Shown: piece by piece, positions 971 through 34,793 of the stretch
Layout of the letters: the number at the start of each line of letters is the position of its first letter
How positions within the stretch are numbered: the first letter of the stretch is position 1
From: a virus
DNA length: 41,297 bases
Strand: one strand, 5' to 3'
Virus record (IMG/VR): IMGVR_UViG_3300042988_001354
Span: 1-41,297 of that record
Notes under the pieces: generated by a model
The model's database searches: none
The model's input: only the letters and a program-made list of their open reading frames with translations
What the model was told of the DNA's origin: nothing
Translations under genes and position numbers: made by a program

Positions 971-1549
971 CTAGGTGTCGAAGACGACGATGCTGAAGAC
1001 CTTATCAGCCGCGTTGGTCATAATCGAATTGTCGAAGCAGGCCACAGCGACGGCGGTGGTGGACTGAGAGGTCACCCGGCACCAAGCCGTCGAGCCGTAG
1101 GGCGTGATGCTCACCGCATAGGCGGTGTCCGTTGCGGTGTAGGCGAGATTCACCGAGTAGACTCCGGTGCCCGAGCGCGTGACGCTGGTCACCCGGGAGC
1201 CGTCCCCGTAGCTGCCGGTGATGTAGCAGGTAGCAGTGCACCCCGTGCTGTTGCTCACTCCATCCGTGGGCCGCGCCCACGCCTTGGGAAGCAGTGCCGG
1301 GTACTGCATCTTCGTGTGCTGGATGGCGGCACTCACGGACACGTTCTCGTCCGCGATGTTCCCATCGAAGGTGTTGTGGAGGTGGGCGACGGTGTTGTTC
1401 AGGTCCGTGGACGTGAGCTTCTGCCCAGTCGTCCACGTCACTCCAGCGGGAGAGCCGGAGTGCCCCAGTGCATCCTTCACCACGAAGACGGCGAGGGCCA
1501 GCATGAGGCAGATGCTGAATCCGTAGAGCAGGCTGCGAATGTGGTTCAC
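971..1549 (-). CDS. Fibre-like protein with hydrophobic N-terminus, 192 aa
   Basis: The gene starts at GTG 1549, overlapping the upstream stop as GTGA, with a GGAAGGAGA ribosome site. Residues 8-24 (YGFSICLMLALAVFVV) form a hydrophobic segment resembling a signal anchor. The next part (WTTGQKLTSTDLNNTVAHLHN) matches the style of phage tail-fibre shafts, which often start with a 'G..lT..dlN' segment followed by a coiled coil. The C-terminal 100 residues are Ser/Thr/Ala-rich beta-type sequence with paired cysteines (TGCTATC). The position directly after the nozzle-like gene suits a tail fibre or tail-tip protein. The hydrophobic N-terminus is odd for a virion part and is shared with the plus-strand fibre cassette. 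Confidence 0.75.
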   Translation of the reverse strand: MNHIRSLLYGFSICLMLALAVFVVKDALGHSGSPAGVTWTTGQKLTSTDLNNTVAHLHNTFDGNIADENVSVSAAIQHTKMQYPALLPKAWARPTDGVSNSTGCTATCYITGSYGDGSRVTSVTRSGTGVYSVNLAYTATDTAYAVSITPYGSTAWCRVTSQSTTAVAVACFDNSIMTNAADKVFSIVVFDT

Positions 1550-3402
1550 GAGATTCTCCTTCCAATGGGACGAATCTTCATCCCGAAGCCAGCCAGCCTA
1601 ACGGCTGGGGCGTTGGTTTCACTCGGCTCCGTGTAGAGCACAGGCTGAAAGGTACGCGCAACGAATCGGTCCCCGTTGGCGGGGTAAACGGCAGCGACTG
1701 CGAACTCCTCGTTCACGCCTGAGTCGCTGTCCAGCTCCGTCAGGTCGAGGGTGAAGTCGGAAGAGGGGATGAGAGAACCATCCGTGGCCTGCTCTCCCGC
1801 CACGCTGAGACGCCCGGAGTCACCGAGCATCTTCAGCGCCACACCGCCGAAGTCGTCAGCGGGGCGGAAGTTCCCGTCACCGTCCAAGGCCCCGTTCGGG
1901 TTCTCCACGTAGGCCACCAGCTCCACGTTGGAGACAATCTTCTTGAGCACCGGGTCCCCGAAGGTGAACTCCTTGAAGACCAGCTCCTGCTTCGGACCTG
2001 TCTGATTGTCCAAGCCGCTGTGCGCGTCGAGATGCGCCTCCGTTCGCTGGTTGGCCTCCACGAAGTAGAGGGTCGAGTTGGGCTCCGAGAGCCGGACGAA
2101 TGCCTGCACCTCCCGCGAGTGCCCGTCCGAGAACGTCTCCACCATCGCGGCGGCTGCCGGCAGGTCCATCGGCCCCCACCACGTCATGCGCTCCGGGTAC
2201 TCGCGCATGTCCAGCCACCACTGCTCGGTGGGAGCGGTGAGGTACGCCTCTCCGTAGTCCTCGCCGGTGTCCCCCTGCCCGGGAGCCACGCGCGGGATGG
2301 TGAGCTTGTAGAAGCCGTCCTTGTAGACGGCGTGCCAGGCGTAGACCGCCGCCCCATAGTGCGAGGCCAGCAGCGGAGCGATGTCATCACCGACTTTGAC
2401 CGGCTGCTGGCCGGAGGGCATCAGCCACACGTTCTTGCCCGAGCACCAGACCGTCCCATGCGGCGTATCCACCACCGTCTCCTTGGAGATGCAGCCCTCG
2501 TCCTTGTTGATGGGCGTCACCCGGAGGGTGCCGTTGAGGACGGAGGTGGGGGGCTCGCCCTGCACCATCCACATGGAGCGCTGCTTCAGCACCAACCAGT
2601 AGGGCTCCACCATGTCGGAGCCGCCCACCACGGCAATCTCCTTCGTCGCCACGATGCGCTGGTCGTCGGCCACTCCCACGAAGAACCAGCTAGCTTCCGG
2701 GATGAGGGTGAGCGGGTCCAGCGGGTCACAGAGCGCGACGTACCCCGGTTGCTCGGGGTCGAAGTCCGCCAGCATGAAGCTGCCGCGGTAGACGGACACC
2801 ACCTTCGGCTTGATGGCCTTGTGCCAGTTGAAGCCCACGTCATCGTAGGTGTTGGTGGTCACCAGCGGAGAGCTGCCCGTCAGCGGGGCATAGAGGATGT
2901 ACCCACTCTTGTCCGCTCCGGTGAAGACGTAGAGCTTCCGCTGGTAGTTCACGAAGCAGGGACGGTCGATGGCCGAGAGCCCGTAGTCGTCGGTGCCCAC
3001 CTTCCCGAGCACCACGTGCCACGAGCTGGTGGAGGAGTCCCACTCCAGCAGCACTCCGCCGGTGTTGTAGATGGGTCCGGGAGTGACGGTGTAGCGCGGC
3101 AGCCAGAGCAGGAGGTGGTGGTGCCCCTTCGTATCCTCGAACTGCGCGAAGGCCATCCGCGCATACAGGTCGGGGTGGGCAGGGTCCGGGATAACCTCAC
3201 CCGTGATGAGCGTCTGCTTCCACGTGGCGAAGACTTCGGAATCGATGAGCTGGGTGTGCGGCCTCATCGAGAGGACTGCCGCTCCCTTCTCCGCGGGATA
3301 GGTGTTCAGCGCCCGGACGAGCTGCGTGTCCTTCAGCTCTCGCGGGTGGCGCGACAGGCACACCCCGTCGAAGCGCTGCACCAGCACCGTATCCTTCGGC
3401 AT
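1546..3402 (-). CDS. Large tail/nozzle-like structural protein, 618 aa
   Basis: The start is ATG 3402 with an AGGAGGT ribosome site just after the upstream stop. The 618-aa sequence is beta-rich with repeated blade-like segments and many Trp/Tyr-Gly turns (for example YVFTGADKSGYILY and PYWLVLKQRSMWMV). No signal or membrane segment is visible. It directly follows an adaptor-like gene in the late unit, the position occupied by the nozzle proteins of short-tailed phages (T7 gp12-like or P22 gp10-like), which are beta-propeller-like. The call as tail nozzle or hub is inferred from size, composition and synteny. A different beta-rich tail protein is possible. Confidence 0.7.
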   Translation of the reverse strand: MPKDTVLVQRFDGVCLSRHPRELKDTQLVRALNTYPAEKGAAVLSMRPHTQLIDSEVFATWKQTLITGEVIPDPAHPDLYARMAFAQFEDTKGHHHLLLWLPRYTVTPGPIYNTGGVLLEWDSSTSSWHVVLGKVGTDDYGLSAIDRPCFVNYQRKLYVFTGADKSGYILYAPLTGSSPLVTTNTYDDVGFNWHKAIKPKVVSVYRGSFMLADFDPEQPGYVALCDPLDPLTLIPEASWFFVGVADDQRIVATKEIAVVGGSDMVEPYWLVLKQRSMWMVQGEPPTSVLNGTLRVTPINKDEGCISKETVVDTPHGTVWCSGKNVWLMPSGQQPVKVGDDIAPLLASHYGAAVYAWHAVYKDGFYKLTIPRVAPGQGDTGEDYGEAYLTAPTEQWWLDMREYPERMTWWGPMDLPAAAAMVETFSDGHSREVQAFVRLSEPNSTLYFVEANQRTEAHLDAHSGLDNQTGPKQELVFKEFTFGDPVLKKIVSNVELVAYVENPNGALDGDGNFRPADDFGGVALKMLGDSGRLSVAGEQATDGSLIPSSDFTLDLTELDSDSGVNEEFAVAAVYPANGDRFVARTFQPVLYTEPSETNAPAVRLAGFGMKIRPIGRRIS

Positions 3403-25217: not shown

Positions 25218-25874
25218 ATGGCTGCATCACAGAAGGACGCACGCATCTGGGCCGCTGACTACTTCCGTGACAACCCGGGGTCCTCAATCGACGACTGCTG
25301 CCGTGCAGCGGACGCCGCTGGGCTGCCCCTTCACAAGAGCACTGCCGCCCAGGTGAGGCGGGTGGTGCTGGAGGCGCTCGTGACTGCGCACAATCACGCC
25401 AACGACTTGGCGATTCGCCCGAAGTTCCTTCAGGTGGAGGTGGAGCTGCCGGAGCAGCCGAAGCAGGACCGGAGCAGGGAGGCGCGCATCGCCTTCGTGA
25501 ACGAGCTGCTGGACAAGGACCCCGGGCTGCACCCTGACCAGCTGAAGTTCCACCTCCGGGAGAAGTTTGACAAGACGCTGGACGCCGCCTACCTCTACGA
25601 GGTGTGCCGCCTTGCGCGAGAGGTACACGGGCTCCCTCAGATTCCCACCCGTGTGGACGAGGACGGACGAGCCAGCCCCGGGCCGGTGCCCATGCCGGTG
25701 GGTGTGCCCGTTCCCGCACCCGACCCGGTGGAGGCAGCGGTGCGCATCCTCGTCCAGAAGCTGAAGGAGATGTCCTTGGACTTCTCCGAGTTCAACCTGA
25801 GGGTGAACGAGGAGTGGGTGGCTGAGTACTCCTTCACCCGGAAGTACTCCGGGAAGGGGAAGGTGACGCTGTGA
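25218..25874 (+). CDS. Hypothetical protein upstream of DNA polymerase, 218 aa
   Basis: The start chosen is ATG 25218 (MAASQKDARIWAADYFRDNP), with TAAGGAG upstream; earlier in-frame starts overlap the membrane peptide. Two similar helical domains appear: residues 1-60 (ADYFRDNPGSSIDDCCRAAD...TAAQVRRVVLEAL) and 85-130 (VNELLDKDPGLHPDQLKFHL), both reminiscent of small winged-helix-like DNA-binding folds. A Pro/Val-rich linker and a C-terminal helix-strand part follow. It is translationally coupled to the polymerase (GTGA overlap). A polymerase accessory or DNA-binding role is inferred. Confidence 0.68.
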   Translation: MAASQKDARIWAADYFRDNPGSSIDDCCRAADAAGLPLHKSTAAQVRRVVLEALVTAHNHANDLAIRPKFLQVEVELPEQPKQDRSREARIAFVNELLDKDPGLHPDQLKFHLREKFDKTLDAAYLYEVCRLAREVHGLPQIPTRVDEDGRASPGPVPMPVGVPVPAPDPVEAAVRILVQKLKEMSLDFSEFNLRVNEEWVAEYSFTRKYSGKGKVTL

Positions 25875-28492
25875 GCGGCTCGACCTACGACGCCAGGGCT
25901 TGCGGTGCGCTGTGCCGGGCCTGTCCCAGGAAGGGGCAGACGCCTGTCCCTCCCAGCGGTAGGCCCGGAGCCCGGGTGGCGTGGGTCGGGCAGGAGCCCA
26001 ACATCCAAGAGGTCCGCTCAGCTGCTGTGCTGGGCGGGCCTGCCGGAGTGCGGCTCACCAAGATGTGGGAGTACGCCTGCCAGCAGGCAGGGCAGGACAT
26101 CCCTCGCAAGGACATCTGGGTCACCAATGCCGTCCTCTGCCCTGCCGTCACCCCTTCGGAGAAGGAGGCGAGGGTGGCCGCTGATTGCTGCCGGCCCCGG
26201 CTGGAGCGGGAGGTGGCCCAGTTGAAGCCCAACGCCGGCATCCTGCTCATGGGGAAGTGGGCGGCGTACTCCGTGCTCGGCTCGGAGAAGGGCATCGCCA
26301 AGCTCATGGGCTTCCACGTGCGCCGGAAGTCCCTGCTCAAGCGGTGGGCCATGCCCGTCCTCCACCCGGGGTACACCTTCGCCCAGCCGGCAGGGCTCGG
26401 CCCCTTGCAGGCGCACCTCGAAGGCTTCGTGCGCCGGATGGTGAACGGGCTCCCGCCCAAGCCTGCCCTGTACGCCAACCCTTCCGCGGAGGACCTGCGC
26501 GGACTCATCGCTGAGTGCAAGCACCGGGGCCTGGCCTTCTCCATCGACGTGGAGGCGCGCCCCCCGGAGCGTGGCCCCCGGGAGTGGGCACTCCTCCCCC
26601 AGTGGGCACGGCTGCGCTCCATCGGAGCGGGCGCCGACATCGGCAGCGGGGTGGGGATGAGCTGGATGTACCCCTGCTCCCGTGAAGTCCTCACCCTGCT
26701 GAAGGAGGCAGTGAGGGACCCCAAGCTGGTGAAGCTGTACATGAACGGCTGGCAGTACGACATCCCCCTGCTGGAGAGGTACGGCTTCGAGCACCGGGGT
26801 GTCATCCACGACATCAAGCAGGGGAGGCGGGCACTCTCGTCCACCTCGAAGCTGGGCCTCGCTGCGCAGGCCGGCTTCTACCTCGACTGTGGACCCTGGA
26901 AAGCGGAAGCCACCCACGACTACGACGATGAGGGTGGCGACGACATGAAGGGCCTGCTGGTGGACGCCAGCCGTATCCCCCGGAAGAAGCTCCTGCTCTA
27001 CAACGCTGAGGACACGGTGCGTGCGGCGCAGATTCGGACCAACCACATCCGGGAGATGCGCGCCGACAAGACGGACAAGGCCCGGGTGCTCCGTCTGTAC
27101 CAGCAACAGCTGCGCCTGGCACGGCACGCCTCTGCGCAGATGTTCCTCCACGGGTTCCCCATCGATGAGCAGCGCCGGCGCTCCCTGTCCAAGGAGCTGC
27201 TCGGCCTCTCCCGTGAGCGGTCTTCCGAGCTGGCCCGAGCGCTCCGTCCCTTCGCCAAGGTGAAGGTGCTGGAGCCGGGGGAGAAGGGGGACAAGTTCAA
27301 GGGGATGTTCCGCATCTCCCTCTCCGGCGGGGTGAACGAGAACGACCTGCGCGGGCTGCTCTTCCACGAGTGTGCGCGCAAGGGCATCAAGTCCTTCGAG
27401 CTGGAAGTCCCCCTCTCGGACAAGTGCCGCACCGACACCGGCCAGGCAGCGGTGAACAAGCGGGCGCTGCTCTACCTCATGGCGGCAGGCAACGTGCCCG
27501 AGGAGGCCAAGCGCATCATCCGCCTGGCGTGGATGGTGGATGCCCCCCTCAAGGCCCGCTCCACCTACGTGGAGTCGGACAAGGTGCTCAGCGCCATCGG
27601 CCCTGACGGGAGAGTGCACGCCTCCCACAACTCGGACGGCACGGAGACGGGTCGCTTCACCTGCTCGAAGCCCAACCTCTACAACCTGAGCGAGCAGAAG
27701 AAGGCGGAGGAGGGGGCTCTCGGAGGGGACCTCCCCAACATCCGGGATATGTACGTGGCCCCTCCCGGGTACCGCATCATCCACCGTGACTTCTCTCAGC
27801 TGGAGCTGGAGGTGATGGCGGATGTGACGGAGGACCAGCTCCTCCGCCGGATGCTCTCCACTGGAGATGCGCACACCGCCCGTGTGCACGAGTGGTTCGG
27901 CATCCCCCACGGGCAGCCCGTGCCGAAGATGCTCCGCCGGCAGGGGAAGGTGGTGGGCTTCAACGCCCAGTACGGAGGCGGCGCCGAGTCGGTGTACCTC
28001 TCGGTGCTGGAGCAGATTCCCGAAGCGGACTTCGAGGACATCGCTGCGCTCCACGCCACCTTCGCGGAAAAGCACGTGGGCATCCGCGAGCACTGGGAGT
28101 CCACCGTCGCCTTCGCAGAGACGCACGGGTACCAGTACACCCGCATCATGGACCGCCGCATCTACTACCCGCCGGGCTTCCCCCTGAAGCCCACCGAAAC
28201 CTCGAACTACCCCATCCAAGGCACGGCGGCGGACATCGCCAACTGCTCGATGGTGGGGAAGGAGGAAGCGGACTTCGCGCAGTCCATGCTGGGCAGGCTG
28301 AAGAAGTACTTCCCGAAGGCGTGGCTGGCGATGCACACCTACGATTCCTTCGACATCATCGCGCCGAAGGCAGAGGCGGAGGCCATCGACAAGATGATGG
28401 ACGAGTGCATGAGCGGTCCCTGGCGCATCGGGAAGCAGCATCGCCGTTACCGTTCGGACGGGAAGATTGGACAGAGGTGGAGTGAGGTCTAG
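25871..28492 (+). CDS. Family A DNA polymerase with N-terminal UDG-like domain, 873 aa
   Basis: The start is GTG 25871. Residues 10-170 look like a family-4 uracil-DNA glycosylase: Cys15, Cys18, Cys90 and Cys106 fit Fe-S ligands, with GQEPNIQE, VTNAVLCP and VLHPGY in order. A 3'-5' exonuclease follows: Asp226/Glu228 (SIDVE), Asp297 (NGWQYDIP) and Tyr377-x3-Asp381. The polymerase part has motif A IHRDFSQLELE (Asp640), motif B RRQGKVVGFNAQYG (Lys693) and motif C HTYDSFD (Asp825-Ser826), where family A enzymes normally have Asp-Glu. The same fusion type is known from phage SPO1 polymerase. It is the replicative polymerase; whether the UDG part is active is uncertain because GQEPN and HPG differ from the usual motifs. 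Confidence 0.92.
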   Translation: MSGSTYDARACGALCRACPRKGQTPVPPSGRPGARVAWVGQEPNIQEVRSAAVLGGPAGVRLTKMWEYACQQAGQDIPRKDIWVTNAVLCPAVTPSEKEARVAADCCRPRLEREVAQLKPNAGILLMGKWAAYSVLGSEKGIAKLMGFHVRRKSLLKRWAMPVLHPGYTFAQPAGLGPLQAHLEGFVRRMVNGLPPKPALYANPSAEDLRGLIAECKHRGLAFSIDVEARPPERGPREWALLPQWARLRSIGAGADIGSGVGMSWMYPCSREVLTLLKEAVRDPKLVKLYMNGWQYDIPLLERYGFEHRGVIHDIKQGRRALSSTSKLGLAAQAGFYLDCGPWKAEATHDYDDEGGDDMKGLLVDASRIPRKKLLLYNAEDTVRAAQIRTNHIREMRADKTDKARVLRLYQQQLRLARHASAQMFLHGFPIDEQRRRSLSKELLGLSRERSSELARALRPFAKVKVLEPGEKGDKFKGMFRISLSGGVNENDLRGLLFHECARKGIKSFELEVPLSDKCRTDTGQAAVNKRALLYLMAAGNVPEEAKRIIRLAWMVDAPLKARSTYVESDKVLSAIGPDGRVHASHNSDGTETGRFTCSKPNLYNLSEQKKAEEGALGGDLPNIRDMYVAPPGYRIIHRDFSQLELEVMADVTEDQLLRRMLSTGDAHTARVHEWFGIPHGQPVPKMLRRQGKVVGFNAQYGGGAESVYLSVLEQIPEADFEDIAALHATFAEKHVGIREHWESTVAFAETHGYQYTRIMDRRIYYPPGFPLKPTETSNYPIQGTAADIANCSMVGKEEADFAQSMLGRLKKYFPKAWLAMHTYDSFDIIAPKAEAEAIDKMMDECMSGPWRIGKQHRRYRSDGKIGQRWSEV

Positions 28493-29026: not shown

Positions 29027-29464
29027 ATGAATCGGATTCTTGCCGTAGCGCTGGTGGCCTGCCTCGTTGCCGGTTCCGCGCAAGCTGCGAAGACGTACCG
29101 CACGTGGTCTGCATCGGGTGTGGCCCTCACCGGCTCAGCCCCGAGTAGCGCACCGACTGCCACCACCGATGCGCTGAAGCTGAACGGCGTCATCGGCTTC
29201 CGCCTTACGGTGTGCGCCACCAGCGGGAACACCCTGACGGGGGGCACCCTCCGGGCCTACGTGTACAGCTCCTCGCTGGGGCTGTGGTCGCGCAACCCGG
29301 ACCTCGACCAGACCATCGGCACCCCCACCCACCGCTGCCGTCACTTCGCTGACCAAAGCGTGGTGGCCGGGAACAACGACTGGGTGAAGTACGTCACCGA
29401 TGCGGTCACCGTCAGCGCCGGGACCACCGTCACCGTCAGCATCTCCGCTGTGGTGGAGAGCTAA
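29027..29464 (+). CDS. Secreted-type protein with signal peptide, 145 aa
   Basis: The start ATG 29027 is set by GGAGGG upstream; a TTG at 28985 is not credible because it lies before the hairpin. The first 20 residues (MNRILAVALVACLVAGSAQA) form a textbook Sec signal peptide with likely cleavage after AQA. The mature part is beta-rich, Thr/Ser-rich, with two cysteines (LTVCATSG and THRCRHF). It heads the fibre cassette. It may be an exported or virion surface protein; no domain is recognised. Confidence 0.75.
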   Translation: MNRILAVALVACLVAGSAQAAKTYRTWSASGVALTGSAPSSAPTATTDALKLNGVIGFRLTVCATSGNTLTGGTLRAYVYSSSLGLWSRNPDLDQTIGTPTHRCRHFADQSVVAGNNDWVKYVTDAVTVSAGTTVTVSISAVVES

Positions 29465-29469
29465 CCGCC

Positions 29470-31044
29470 ATGCTCAGGCACGTCTTCATCCTCTTTGCCC
29501 TGCTCCCGTCGCTGGTGCTGGCGCAGAGCGAGGCGCTGCCTGGGAGCGGCGCCGCCGGCGACTACGTTGACGAGGCCGGCGACACTATGACGGGGCCCCT
29601 CGATATCTCGGGGAGTCGCTCGACCGGCATCCTTTCGCTGACGGGCGGCAACTACAGCGCAAGCTTCCTCATCACGAGGAACGAGACGCTGGGCACGGCG
29701 CCCGATGAGACGGTGAATCCGTACTTCCGCATCGGAGACATCCAGCTCGGCGGCGTTGACGCCCCGATGCTCATGGTCATGGCGGGGGCGGACAACCTCA
29801 CCGAAAAGCCCGCCTTCGTCATCGAATACACCGGCACCGTCGCCTCAGTCGCCGGAAACGTCCGCATCAGCCACGTCGAAGGCTTTCTGGGGCTGGGCGA
29901 TGTGGTGCCCGTCTTCCGGCTCTCGTCGGCCCCAAACATGGCACTGGAGATGGGGCCTGGCGGCTGCGTCGTCGAGGCCGGTGACCTCGTGCGGGCGACC
30001 AACGTGACGACCGCCACCTGCGCTACGCCTCATGAGATGGAGGCCGGAGACGCGTTCCTAATGAGCCACTCCGAGGCCAATTTCCCCGCCTTCACGTCCG
30101 TCACGAAGACCGTCGTCTCGGCTCCCACTGCCTACCAAATCACCTACTCAGACACCGGCACCAACGCCACCAGCACCATCGACCACCACATCAGCGGCAT
30201 GACGGACGTGCACTGGAAGCGGACCGGGCCGAACGCGGCGGCGATTGCCCTGGGTGGAACCAACCGAATCACGTTCGAGGCCGGGGAAATCAATATCCCC
30301 TCCGACGTGGACCTCTACGTCAACAAGAACGGAGGATCGCACCCGCTCCTCTGGGCGAACTACAGCTCCAACCGCGTCGGAATCGGAGCCACCACGCCGG
30401 GGGCCAAGCTGCATGTGGAGGGCACCGCCGCCAGCGAGAAGGTCGCCATCATCCAGGCGCCGGCCTCCAACAGTAATCACGTCATGGACTGGCAGAACTC
30501 GGCCGGTTCAAGCTTGGCCTTCGTCCGGTACGACGGGCTCATCTACTCAGGTCCCGGTTTCAACTCGTCTGTGACGCAGGTCACGCAGGCATCCGCGACG
30601 GGCACCGCGATTTACTACAACGGAGATCACCGAGCTGGCTGCTACAAGATGGTGCTCTACTACACCGCCTTCACGGCGGCGGCACTGACGCAGGATGTGA
30701 CGATTGCCACGCTGCCAGCAAAAACCCGAGTCACCAGCATCATCGTGGACACGCCGTACAACTATTGGGGCACTGGCGCGGGCGTCTACACGCTGCGAGT
30801 CGGCCACACCACGGGCGGGCAGGAGTACATCCTCGACCACGACGTTCGGAGCGGCGCCGTCACCAAGGGTTTGGTGGACGGCGACCTCGGCACGTCCATC
30901 AACCGGGCGAACGCCGTCCAGGGCGGCCACATCCCGAGCTGGACGACGACGACCGCAATCACCGCACGGCTCACGTCGGACGTGAACGTCAGCAACATCA
31001 CCGCCGGGCAGACGGACATCTACATCTGCCTGGAGTTCCCGTAG
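29470..31044 (+). CDS. Tail-fibre-like protein with signal peptide, 524 aa
   Basis: The start is ATG 29470, 5 nt after the previous stop, with only a weak ribosome site. The N-terminus (MLRHVFILFALLPSLVLAQS) is a signal-peptide-like leader with likely cleavage at VLA-QS. The next segment, GDYVDEAGDTMTGPLDISGS, is a classic phage tail-fibre repeat ('GdtMtGpL'). Beta-rich Gly/Ser/Thr repeats and NRVGIGATTPGAKLHVEGTA follow, another fibre-type motif. The C-terminus is a compact beta domain. The combination of a fibre with a Sec leader is unusual. Confidence 0.82.
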   Translation: MLRHVFILFALLPSLVLAQSEALPGSGAAGDYVDEAGDTMTGPLDISGSRSTGILSLTGGNYSASFLITRNETLGTAPDETVNPYFRIGDIQLGGVDAPMLMVMAGADNLTEKPAFVIEYTGTVASVAGNVRISHVEGFLGLGDVVPVFRLSSAPNMALEMGPGGCVVEAGDLVRATNVTTATCATPHEMEAGDAFLMSHSEANFPAFTSVTKTVVSAPTAYQITYSDTGTNATSTIDHHISGMTDVHWKRTGPNAAAIALGGTNRITFEAGEINIPSDVDLYVNKNGGSHPLLWANYSSNRVGIGATTPGAKLHVEGTAASEKVAIIQAPASNSNHVMDWQNSAGSSLAFVRYDGLIYSGPGFNSSVTQVTQASATGTAIYYNGDHRAGCYKMVLYYTAFTAAALTQDVTIATLPAKTRVTSIIVDTPYNYWGTGAGVYTLRVGHTTGGQEYILDHDVRSGAVTKGLVDGDLGTSINRANAVQGGHIPSWTTTTAITARLTSDVNVSNITAGQTDIYICLEFP

Positions 31045-31059
31045 CACCAAGGAGATTCC

Positions 31060-32607
31060 ATGCGACTGCTGATTGCCCTTCTGCTGTTACCGACTCTTGT
31101 GCTCGCCCAGAGCGAGGCTCCTTCAGGGGCGGGGGGAGGTGGTGGCTACACTCCCCCGAGCACGGCGGCAGCCACCACGGCGGAACTCACCTACTACGTC
31201 TCCTCCAGCGGAGACGACGACAACTCTTGCACCGACTCCGGTGAGCCATGCCTCACCATCAACGGTGCGCTGGCGAAGATTCCGACGACGCTCATCCACG
31301 CCACCACGGTGTCTGTCGGCGCGGGGACGTTCGACGGCTTCATCCTCGACGGCTTCACCGTCCGGCAGCTCGGCGCGTCCACGTCCAACATGGCGTCGCT
31401 CGACATCGTGGGCACGATGCAGGCGCCGACGCTGGCAAGCGGAGTCACCTCCGGCACCGTCACGTCTTACGCGGCAGCGTCGGGCAATACCTATCCCGTC
31501 GTCACGGTGACTGGTGCCGGATGGACGAGCAACGACCTGCGCGGCAAGTTCTTCCGGGCTACGGGTGGAACAGGGACGGGCCGCACCTACGCGATTGCCG
31601 AGAACACCGCCACCACCATCACGCTCGCGGGCGGTGTCACGGCGATGGACGCCACCACCACGTTCTCCCTACTGGAATCAGCCACCACCATCACATGCAA
31701 CCTCGGTCTGGTAGGGCGGACCGCGACGCCCTGGCAGTCGGACGTGGCGGCCACCAGCAGTCGCTCCTGCGTGATGGCGCGCAACCTGGGGCAAGGCTCG
31801 GCGGCCTCGTCGTTCTCCAGCTATCTGCCCTACCGCATCGTGGGGTTCGTCTTCTCGGGCGGGACGGTCGCGGTGGACATGCGCGACGTGTTCGGGCTGG
31901 AGCTGGGGTGGAACAAGTTCGTCTCACAGACGGGCACCGGGGCGGGCTCGCCGGCCGTGTTGCTCAACAACAGCATCAACCCGACACTGTTCCACAACTA
32001 CGCCGTGCTCATCGCAGACAAATGGTTCGCCAGTCAGGGCTCGGCGGGCATCAACGGCGCGACGCGCGGGCTGTATGCGGCTGGGAACGTGGTGTCCGGC
32101 GGCGGCTTCTACGGCGACAGCTTCACATCCTTGGACAACGGCCTGTTCTTGTCCAACTACGTCACGGGCGGGGACCACAACGTCGCCATCTTCTACTTCG
32201 ACGGCACGGTGGGGATGGTGTCGATGACGACTAACCGCGTGTCGGGGAACGCGGACACATCCGGCTCGTGCGTGCAGGTGGGCGGCAGCGCCATCTCCAT
32301 CGGCTCGTCGTTGGGCGGAACGCTGCGATTCAACGGAGGCGTCTACAATAGCTGCCGTCACGGCCTCGCGCTGTACGGCCCAGCGGTGGATGTGACGGTG
32401 ACGACCGGCACCCTCGAAGGCACCGGCAACGCCCGCTTCGGCATCCTCGCCCGCAACGGGGCGACGGTTCGGACCGCCACGTCCACGCTCACCGGCACGC
32501 TCGGGGATTTGTCCTTCGACGACGCAGCAGCCATCACCTACGCCACGGTCGTCGGCGCCACCCAGGTTGACGCGGTGCTGGGTGGGCACTTCAGGAACTC
32601 TCCATGA
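31060..32607 (+). CDS. Tailspike/beta-helix-like protein with signal peptide, 515 aa
   Basis: The start ATG 31060 has AAGGAG upstream. The leader (MRLLIALLLLPTLVLAQSEA) is strikingly like that of the preceding gene (shared LP-LVLAQSEA). A Gly-rich linker follows, then ELTYYVSSSGDDDNSCTDSG and TINGALAKIPTTLIHATTVS, the entry pattern of parallel beta-helix (pectate-lyase-like) domains found in tailspikes and depolymerases. Short repeated strands continue through the length. It probably binds or cleaves a surface polysaccharide. Catalytic residues cannot be picked by eye. Confidence 0.8.
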   Translation: MRLLIALLLLPTLVLAQSEAPSGAGGGGGYTPPSTAAATTAELTYYVSSSGDDDNSCTDSGEPCLTINGALAKIPTTLIHATTVSVGAGTFDGFILDGFTVRQLGASTSNMASLDIVGTMQAPTLASGVTSGTVTSYAAASGNTYPVVTVTGAGWTSNDLRGKFFRATGGTGTGRTYAIAENTATTITLAGGVTAMDATTTFSLLESATTITCNLGLVGRTATPWQSDVAATSSRSCVMARNLGQGSAASSFSSYLPYRIVGFVFSGGTVAVDMRDVFGLELGWNKFVSQTGTGAGSPAVLLNNSINPTLFHNYAVLIADKWFASQGSAGINGATRGLYAAGNVVSGGGFYGDSFTSLDNGLFLSNYVTGGDHNVAIFYFDGTVGMVSMTTNRVSGNADTSGSCVQVGGSAISIGSSLGGTLRFNGGVYNSCRHGLALYGPAVDVTVTTGTLEGTGNARFGILARNGATVRTATSTLTGTLGDLSFDDAAAITYATVVGATQVDAVLGGHFRNSP

Positions 32608-33935
32608 CGTGGAGTGAACGGCTGCTGTTGGCGTTCGGGGTGCTCTTCCTGTTCGCTGCCATGTGCATCGATGTGGATGCACACGCCCAGTCCGGCGTCA
32701 TGGTGCAGGACGAAGGCACCAACCAGGGCACGGCGAATCTCATCAACTGCTCAGGCAGCGGCGTCACGTGCACAATGAGCGGCAGACGCGCCACCATCGC
32801 CGTCACCGGAAGTAGCGGGCTCCCTGCTGACCCCGCCGCTTGCAGCTCCGGGCAGTACGTCACCGACCAGAACGCGAGCGGGACGCTCACGTGTGCACAG
32901 CCTGCCTTCTCCCAGCTGAGCGGCACAGCTACGGACGGGCAGCTCGCCAACAACTACTCAGGCGTCGGAGCATGCAGTGCGAACCAGTGGGCCAGCACTC
33001 TCAACGACAACGCGGCTCCGACCTGCACCCAGCCCGGGTTCTCCAACCTGAGCGGCACGGCCTCCATCGCTCAGGGCGGAACCACCGAGACGGCCAGCAC
33101 CGAAGACGCGGTGCTCGTGGGCAACAGCACCACCGACTGGGAGGCGAAGGTCCTCCCGAGTTGCTCGAACGCCACCACCTCCAAGCTCCTCTACAACTCC
33201 TCGACGAACACCTTCTCGTGCGGCACTGACACGGACACCGACTCGTCCGGGCTCGATACCCTCCTCTGGCACGAGTACGGGTACGTCGTCTTCCAGTGCC
33301 AGCCCGGGCACAGCGTCAGTGCGACGACCCCGTGGTACTGCCCCTGGGGCAACGCGAACATCTCGATGACCGGGACCATCTCCCTGCTCACGTCGAACGC
33401 GACCCGGCGGTACATCACCACCGCAACCTCGACCACGCTCAACGCCACCTCCGGGCACAACGGCAGCCTCGGCGGCATCACCCGAAGCAAGTGGGCGCCT
33501 CGACTGCTCACCATCTCGCTCAGCGACGACACCATCTCCAACCGGAGGGTGTGGTTCGGTCTGGTGGAAACAGGCATCGACGCCGTAGCGGTGAGGACCG
33601 AGGCATCCGGCACGGCAGCCAGCGTCAACGACTTCGCGGCGGTCGGATTCGATACCGCCGTCGATGCGAGCTGGATGCTCTGCACGGGCGACGGAACCAA
33701 CTACGGCTGCAAGGACACCGGCATCGACGTGGCGGCAGACACCGTTTACAAGATTGACCTCGACTGGCGGACCTCAGGGTCGGTGATTGCCGACATCAAC
33801 GACACCCGCACCGAGAAGACCTCCAACGTCTCCACGGCTGACGTAGCGCTCGGGGTCCAGATGACCGTCACCAACTTGAGCGGCGGAACCGCACGCGAGT
33901 ACCACTGGGGACGCTTGGAACTGGTGCAGAACTAG
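32604..33935 (+). CDS. Tail-fibre-like protein with hydrophobic leader, 443 aa
   Basis: The start ATG 32604 overlaps the previous stop as ATGA. Residues 6-20 are hydrophobic (RLLLAFGVLFLFAAM) and a likely cleavage site is AHA-QSG, again with Gln-Ser after Ala. Then come fibre-type repeats: TCAQPAFSQLSGTATDGQL and TCTQPGFSNLSGTASIAQG, a short tandem unit seen in many phage fibres. The C-terminal half is a beta-rich lectin-like domain (SGGTAREYHWGRLELVQN at the end). It probably belongs to the same adhesin set as the two genes before it. Confidence 0.78.
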   Translation: MTWSERLLLAFGVLFLFAAMCIDVDAHAQSGVMVQDEGTNQGTANLINCSGSGVTCTMSGRRATIAVTGSSGLPADPAACSSGQYVTDQNASGTLTCAQPAFSQLSGTATDGQLANNYSGVGACSANQWASTLNDNAAPTCTQPGFSNLSGTASIAQGGTTETASTEDAVLVGNSTTDWEAKVLPSCSNATTSKLLYNSSTNTFSCGTDTDTDSSGLDTLLWHEYGYVVFQCQPGHSVSATTPWYCPWGNANISMTGTISLLTSNATRRYITTATSTTLNATSGHNGSLGGITRSKWAPRLLTISLSDDTISNRRVWFGLVETGIDAVAVRTEASGTAASVNDFAAVGFDTAVDASWMLCTGDGTNYGCKDTGIDVAADTVYKIDLDWRTSGSVIADINDTRTEKTSNVSTADVALGVQMTVTNLSGGTAREYHWGRLELVQN

Positions 33936-33960: not shown

Positions 33961-34296
33961 ATGCCCAACACCGGAGAGATTCCCGTCGTCAATGTGAACG
34001 AGCGCACCACGTTCAGTTGGCCCATCGTGGTGGCAACGGGTGCGCTCATCCTCGGCATCGCAGAAGCCCGAAGCAAGGTGGCGAGTAACGAGAACGAGAT
34101 GACGGTACTGAAGGCTGAAGTCACCGCCCTCAAGCACGACATCGCTCAGCAGGTGAACGCCCTCAACCGGGACATGACCGAGCAGAAGGTGGCGACGGTG
34201 AGGCTGGAGGGGAAGGTAGACCTCGGCAACTCCAAGCTGGACTCCATCGTGGATTCGCTCACGGGTGGGCGGGCTCCGCGGAGGGCTGAGCGATGA
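33961..34296 (+). CDS. Membrane protein with coiled coil, lysis-associated, 111 aa
   Basis: The start ATG 33961 has GGAGGAG upstream. One transmembrane helix at about residues 19-36 (SWPIVVATGALILGIAEA) is followed by a long coiled coil (NEMTVLKAEVTALKHDIAQQ) and a Gly/Arg tail. The stop overlaps the endolysin start (ATGA). Single-pass proteins of this kind beside an endolysin include class III-like holins and accessory lysis proteins. The role is inferred from context. Confidence 0.68.
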   Translation: MPNTGEIPVVNVNERTTFSWPIVVATGALILGIAEARSKVASNENEMTVLKAEVTALKHDIAQQVNALNRDMTEQKVATVRLEGKVDLGNSKLDSIVDSLTGGRAPRRAER

Positions 34297-34793
34297 CCGA
34301 AGCCCGCCGGCGATTCGTGGAGTGGGCCAAGGCACAGGCAGGGGCCATCCCTCCCCGCTGGTACATCTGGGGCTCAGATGGGCCGGACACCTTCGACTGC
34401 TCCGGCTTCATCTGTGGAGGGCTGAAGGAAGTCCTCGGCCTCGACTGGACGCTCACGTGGTGGGCTGACCGGATGTGGAAGACGCTGGAGCACACGGAGG
34501 ACCCTCAGCCTGGGGACCTCGCCCTCTACGGGACCCACCGGAAAGCGACCCACGTGGAGATGGTGGTGGAAGGGCGCTACGGCCCCGTCATCGGAGCCTC
34601 GGGCGGGGACTCGAACACTCGCTCCGTGGCCGACGCTCAGCGGATGAACGCCAAGGTGAAGCAGAAGCCGCACGTCTTCTACCGCAAGGACTTCCTCGGC
34701 TTCTGCATCCTCTCCCCCTTGGACCGGCTACCGCCACGCGGCGTAGCTGTAGCCAGCGAGGAGCCCAAGGACGAAGGCTCCAATCACGGGTAG
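34293..34793 (+). CDS. NlpC/P60 endolysin, 166 aa
   Basis: The start ATG 34293 overlaps the previous gene. The catalytic segment is TFDCSGFICGG (Cys36), with PGDLALYG and THVEMVVEG (His87), the Cys-His pattern of NlpC/P60 peptidases that cut peptidoglycan stem peptides. There is no signal peptide or cell-wall-binding domain, so it depends on a holin. Its final 66 nt overlap, tail to tail, the end of the minus-strand membrane gene at 34728. Confidence 0.86.
   Translation: MTEARRRFVEWAKAQAGAIPPRWYIWGSDGPDTFDCSGFICGGLKEVLGLDWTLTWWADRMWKTLEHTEDPQPGDLALYGTHRKATHVEMVVEGRYGPVIGASGGDSNTRSVADAQRMNAKVKQKPHVFYRKDFLGFCILSPLDRLPPRGVAVASEEPKDEGSNHG

Follow-up and report, generated by a model that had tools for sequence, protein, structure and literature searches.

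Sec-type leaders and paired cysteines suggest that fibre-like proteins of a podovirus are made outside the cell interior

Tailed phages, by the textbook account, assemble completely in the cytoplasm, which is a reducing place. The presence of apparent export leaders on several fibre-like genes in the stretch of viral DNA analysed here (41,297 nucleotides; the window) therefore raised the question of whether their products are really exported and, if so, whether they could still become parts of the virion. The initial annotation had called such leaders unexpected for tailed-phage fibres, a point that we uphold. Fibres and Sec leaders are each known; their pairing in tailed phages is apparently undescribed, as searches of the open-access literature other than preprints turned up no tail fibre said to carry a Sec leader.

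Leader-bearing genes in the window

The window is a complete podovirus genome of 41.3 kb, from a virus of bacteria, as judged from an 81-bp direct repeat at both genome ends, and its gene order circularly matches that of podovirus MW202477. Host assignment via genome contigs gave only distant terminase matches, mostly in Planctomycetota MAGs, which were not usable. A gene caller trained on the genome's own clear genes returned 42-43 genes, and a rule-based finder of Sec leaders flagged five of 42 (Table 1). These comprise the four consecutive plus-strand genes for which signal-peptide-like starts had initially been proposed, as well as a fifth gene, 971-1549, for which a hydrophobic start had been noted. 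All four cassette genes are real ORFs, and their codon usage is gene-like, as in the remaining genome.

Table 1. Leader-bearing genes, their leaders and the adjoining tail hub gene. Leaders were called by the rule-based finder, and cleavage sites are its predictions; cysteine (Cys) counts refer to the mature protein.
Feature	Coordinates	Strand	Start	Details
Leader-bearing protein, 145 aa	29027..29464	+	ATG, GGAGG upstream	cleavage between A20 and A21; 2 Cys
Sec-type leader	29027..29086	+		MNRILAVALVACLVAGSAQA, then AKTY
Leader-bearing fibre-like protein, 524 aa	29470..31044	+	ATG	cleavage between A18 and Q19; 4 Cys (166/184, 391/520)
Sec-type leader	29470..29523	+		MLRHVFILFALLPSLVLA, then QSEA
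Leader-bearing tailspike-like protein, 515 aa	31060..32607	+	ATG, AGGAG upstream	cleavage between A16 and Q17; 6 Cys, three local pairs
Sec-type leader	31060..31107	+		MRLLIALLLLPTLVLA, then QSEA
Leader-bearing fibre-like protein, 443 aa	32604..33935	+	ATG, overlapping stop of preceding gene	cleavage between A28 and Q29; 12 Cys, six local pairs (49/56, 80/97, 124/141, 187/206, 232/246, 360/369)
Sec-type leader	32604..32687	+		MTWSERLLLAFGVLFLFAAMCIDVDAHA, then QSGV
Fifth leader-bearing fibre	971..1549	-	GTG, AAGGAG upstream	leader followed by a short helix (LTSTDLNN motif) and a C-terminal beta-sandwich knob; 4 Cys
Sec-type leader	1463..1549	-		MNHIRSLLYGFSICLMLALAVFVVKDALG, then HSGS; cleavage between G29 and H30
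Tail hub or 'stabilization'-like gene, without leader	1546..3402	-		end overlaps start of the 971-1549 gene

It could be argued that these leaders are chance hydrophobic stretches or the products of wrong start codons, as high G+C genomes are rich in open frames and the finder is rule-based, with a cut-off that was fixed after the scores had been seen. However, when the N-termini of the same genes were shuffled (300 rounds) a mean of 0.08 and a maximum of 2 were flagged, and among non-gene ORFs of at least 100 aa only 1/95 passed. Three of the five starts (29027, 31060 and 971-1549) have good ribosome-binding sites, and the leader of 971-1549 is conserved in ten orthologues, as described below. 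The Sec-type features of the five genes (charged n-region, hydrophobic core and AxA-like site) are thus above chance, in agreement with the original claim of export leaders on fibre-like proteins, and a chance origin seems very improbable indeed. In most of the leader-bearing genes the AxA-type cleavage site is classic.

A further suggestion, that the LP-LVLAQSEA string shared by the 29470 and 31060 leaders reflects a reusable module, proved weak. Identity between the two is 60% at the nucleotide level (43/72) and 8/15 in protein, the mean identity over pairs of window leaders being 24%, and a duplicated module was rejected at the DNA level. Glutamine at +1 is frequent in fibre leaders of other phages (15/31).

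The products of 29470, 31060 and 32604 are fibre-like by composition. For 31060, which looks beta-helix-like when judged by eye, there is also a weak PHROGs tail match (phrog_4577, E 0.001); its single-sequence structure model was too poor to use (pLDDT 32) and was discarded. Single-protein scans found no close relatives of the 31060 body or of the DNA polymerase, and 29470-31044 had no match in Pfam or PHROGs. The 32604 product is similar to those of L001 25205-26293 and L238 3037-4011 (L numbers denote records of relatives). The 29027 product had no Pfam match near the cut-off and no PHROGs match, and on this basis was not placed in a fibre family. No depolymerase, polysaccharide-degrading or other enzyme domain exceeded the Pfam cut-off in the leader-bearing proteins.

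Directly downstream of the cassette, 34293-34793 encodes an NlpC/P60 domain protein without a leader, the top PHROGs match of which is a minor tail protein; it is a candidate lysin or tail-associated enzyme.

The fifth gene and its relatives

The initial annotation had placed the leader-bearing genes outside the structural unit, which does not apply to the fifth: 971-1549 lies inside it, in the tail operon, directly behind the tail-hub gene. In an alignment-based model its leader forms one helix and the main part of the C-terminal beta-sandwich has a pLDDT of 76-93. In Foldseek searches with this model, the best PDB match was to the Pam1 tailspike, in its receptor-binding domain (7eea; E 0.013, probability 1.0, 66 columns), and a viral library yielded matches to numerous phage tail fibres (E down to 3e-8). 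A profile search matched the P-SCSP1u fibre gp28 (E 0.009). Thus, the C-terminal domain models as a fibre or tailspike knob, in a gene of the tail operon. The Pam1 tailspike and P-SCSP1u gp28 (8i4m) resemble the 971-1549 product in the fold of the C-terminal domain or in an N-terminal motif. They differ from it in that, to our knowledge, neither carries an export leader and both are assembled in the cytoplasm.

The lineage to which the window belongs includes two annotated uncultured podoviruses, MW202477 (cto1L10) and MW202637 (Manatee Spring), with DNA polymerases about 46% (over the whole protein; 53% in the shared alignment) and about 31% identical, respectively, to that of the window. Gene order is similar, and leader-bearing fibre-like genes occupy the same two places, one after the tail-hub gene and the other flanked by the genes for the DNA polymerase and the large internal protein, whereas the fibre bodies differ. 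In MW202637, beyond what is seen in the window, some leaders are of the lipoprotein type and the capsid gene is followed by a leader gene. Scans of viral contigs, with the terminase, the polymerase and the 971-type gene as queries, yielded further relatives, whose other halves were retrieved later.

A 971-type gene was present in all ten relatives compared, and all ten aligned orthologues keep a Sec-type leader. Mean identity is 28% in the leader and about 39% in the mature part, and each of the ten leaders begins with positive charge, followed by a hydrophobic core whose 12-residue maximum is 2.5-3.3; the mature parts do not exceed 2.0. C104, C108, C157 and C171 are invariant in all ten; an eleventh record found later (G002) has the leader but only two cysteines.

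Cysteine content and pairing

Large internal virion proteins of the window genome have no cysteine, and each of the five leader-bearing proteins has an even number (Table 1). Across 13 lineage records, counting leader-bearing genes of at least 100 aa and excluding the lipobox cysteine of lipoprotein-type leaders, even, non-zero mature counts were found in 30/31 leader-bearing proteins as against 60/146 other cysteine-containing proteins (Fisher p=1.7e-9), and cysteine density was 2.75 versus 0.93 per 100 aa. In the records retrieved later, 11 of 12 leader-bearing genes had even counts when counted by hand, the exception being L231 11174 with 15; L013 15827 is also odd. Consecutive cysteines tend to pair locally, with a median spacing of 15 residues within pairs and 32 between them (p=8e-6), for 34 proteins picked by hand; every one of these has an even count, the two odd proteins having been left out. 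These p-values serve as guides only, as related genes share ancestry and independence is overstated.

The cysteines are thus even in number, conserved and locally paired, as in disulfide-bonded extracytoplasmic proteins, and they make the leader-bearing bodies look like exported proteins. Taken with the leaders, they indicate with high probability that the proteins are exported through Sec, cleaved and oxidised in the periplasm, a reading that is drawn from sequence features.

Another way to account for the hydrophobic N-termini, put forward initially as a virion membrane anchor, is that they stay uncleaved and, as helices, anchor the fibres in the virion or a membrane, or act as an assembly trigger. 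The 971-1549 leader would suit such a role, being long (29 residues), having a weak site between DALG and HS, and modelling as one helix. Even, paired cysteines are not what this idea would lead one to expect, nor are the classic AxA-type sites of most leaders or the way in which leader sequence diverges while physical character persists. The anchor proposal is weakened in particular by the even cysteine counts and by the variability of leader sequence, and uncleaved helices appear improbable.

Leader-bearing fibres in unrelated phages and possible fates of the leader-bearing proteins

Use of the host Sec system by tailed phages is in itself familiar from SAR endolysins, Rz1 spanins, Lom, Bor and Llp. 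These, however, are lysis or lysogenic-conversion/exclusion proteins, whereas the window genes are fibre-like. A closer parallel came from the cultured Burkholderia phage BcepC6B (NC_005887), which had originally been included as a distant control: its gp19, annotated as tail fiber, has a canonical Sec leader (MKKLIAILLAVPALA) and an even number of mature cysteines, and the same is true of the gp19 homologue orf035, annotated as a structural protein, of Xanthomonas phage PBR31 (MT119766; leader MKKLIALFSLFCTSAFG). The passages of the PBR31 paper that we found make no mention of this leader. The bodies of gp19 and orf035 have no detectable relation to the window proteins, and a tblastn search of a phage collection for gp19 found no member of the lineage, so the likeness is one of design only. 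Both genomes carry an integrase. Bcep22-like phages BcepIL02 and JC1, considered as further examples, were rejected and serve as a negative control, as their fibres contain only 1-3 cysteines and lack a convincing leader.

A scan with gp19 and orf035 gave 435 relatives; 80 of these were retained, and 54 dereplicated complete proteins were compared. A leader was present in 33/54 and a leaderless N-terminus in 21/54, the leader substituting for the N-terminal part of the leaderless members. Leader-bearing members contain 0.85 cysteines per 100 aa versus 0.19 in leaderless members (p=8e-8), with even counts in 24/33 and odd counts in 9/33. This enrichment in the leader-bearing members only is a further point against uncleaved helices.

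If the proteins are exported, they might never be virion parts at all, and might instead coat the infected cell or be released, with a function in blocking superinfection, in binding receptors of the cell itself to keep progeny from getting caught on debris, or in degrading surface polysaccharide. The leaders, cysteine parity and local pairing fit such an external role equally well, and lipoprotein-type variants exist. In BcepC6B and PBR31, unlike the window, the leader-bearing gene is flanked by a leaderless fibre or tailspike on one side and by the lysis genes on the other, so the leader-bearing protein there need not be the receptor-binding protein and an external role is plausible in these two phages; the replacement of an N-terminal part by the leader in the gp19 family points the same way. 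In the window, however, every recognisable fibre gene among the called genes of the complete genome has a leader, the remaining structural-unit genes being head, portal, terminase, hub, Cys-free internal-type, or unmatched without fibre-like sequence, and no recognisable leaderless fibre was seen in the two annotated relatives either. With an external role only, the virion would thus lack a receptor-binding protein. The 971-type gene, in the tail operon and in every relative compared, is also unlike a typical accessory gene, and no enzyme domain was detected by Pfam. We therefore consider a purely external role less likely than mounting on virions, though well worth keeping in mind.

The absence of a recognisable leaderless fibre, together with the tail-operon position of the 971-type gene, suggests that the leader-bearing proteins are probably receptor-binding proteins mounted on the virion at lysis. 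On the explanation that we favour, the five genes would encode tail-fibre or tailspike-type receptor-binding proteins produced as pre-proteins, which would be exported via Sec and cut by signal peptidase I (with lipoprotein-type variants in relatives). The mature fibres would fold with disulfide bonds in the periplasm and join virions outside the cytoplasm, on opening of the inner membrane at lysis. The case for mounting after export is weaker than that for export and stands at about an even chance; that the five genes specify exported, disulfide-folded receptor-binding fibres which join virions at lysis might, as a whole, equally be right or wrong. We know of no tailed phage that mounts Sec-exported fibres. 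Somewhat more tentatively, the lineage's whole receptor-binding set may be Sec-exported, undergo oxidation in the periplasm and be attached to virions only at lysis, the strategy having arisen or spread in other podoviruses through leader swaps onto existing fibres.

A set of leader-bearing fibres with paired cysteines implies either two-compartment assembly or a secreted arsenal of fibre parts. Either outcome would alter the annotation and production of receptor-binding proteins, which would call for periplasmic expression or, at least, leaderless expression under oxidising conditions. The cultured examples, BcepC6B and PBR31, make the idea testable now.

Several other features of the lineage were seen in the course of this analysis. 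The N-terminal part of the window DNA polymerase (25871-28492) is uracil-DNA-glycosylase-like, and in L001 and L002 parts similar to this region are annotated as separate small genes. Many relatives encode, within or beside the fibre cassette, a small protein containing a single membrane helix, followed in several by a coiled coil, that gives weak holin and spanin-like matches (window 33961-34296; L001 26305-26661, L144 14952-15203, L147 6460-6687, L013 16244-16555, L236 13348-13614 and L002 38827-39108). In more distant relatives, the major capsid gene is immediately followed by a gene for a leader-bearing protein that is about 145 aa long (212 aa in L020) and contains 2-6 cysteines, most often 4 (L002 21412-21852, L007 15978-16442, L010 6877-7302, L011 8016-8447, L145 5869-6303 and, probably, L020 8031-8669); this protein is absent from the window and L001. 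Lipoprotein-type leaders occur on cassette genes of L002 (33494-34963 and 34963-35475), L013 (14803-15816) and L238 (5657-5905), and the L002 34963 gene has a VHELFH metalloprotease-like motif in addition to its lipoprotein-type leader.
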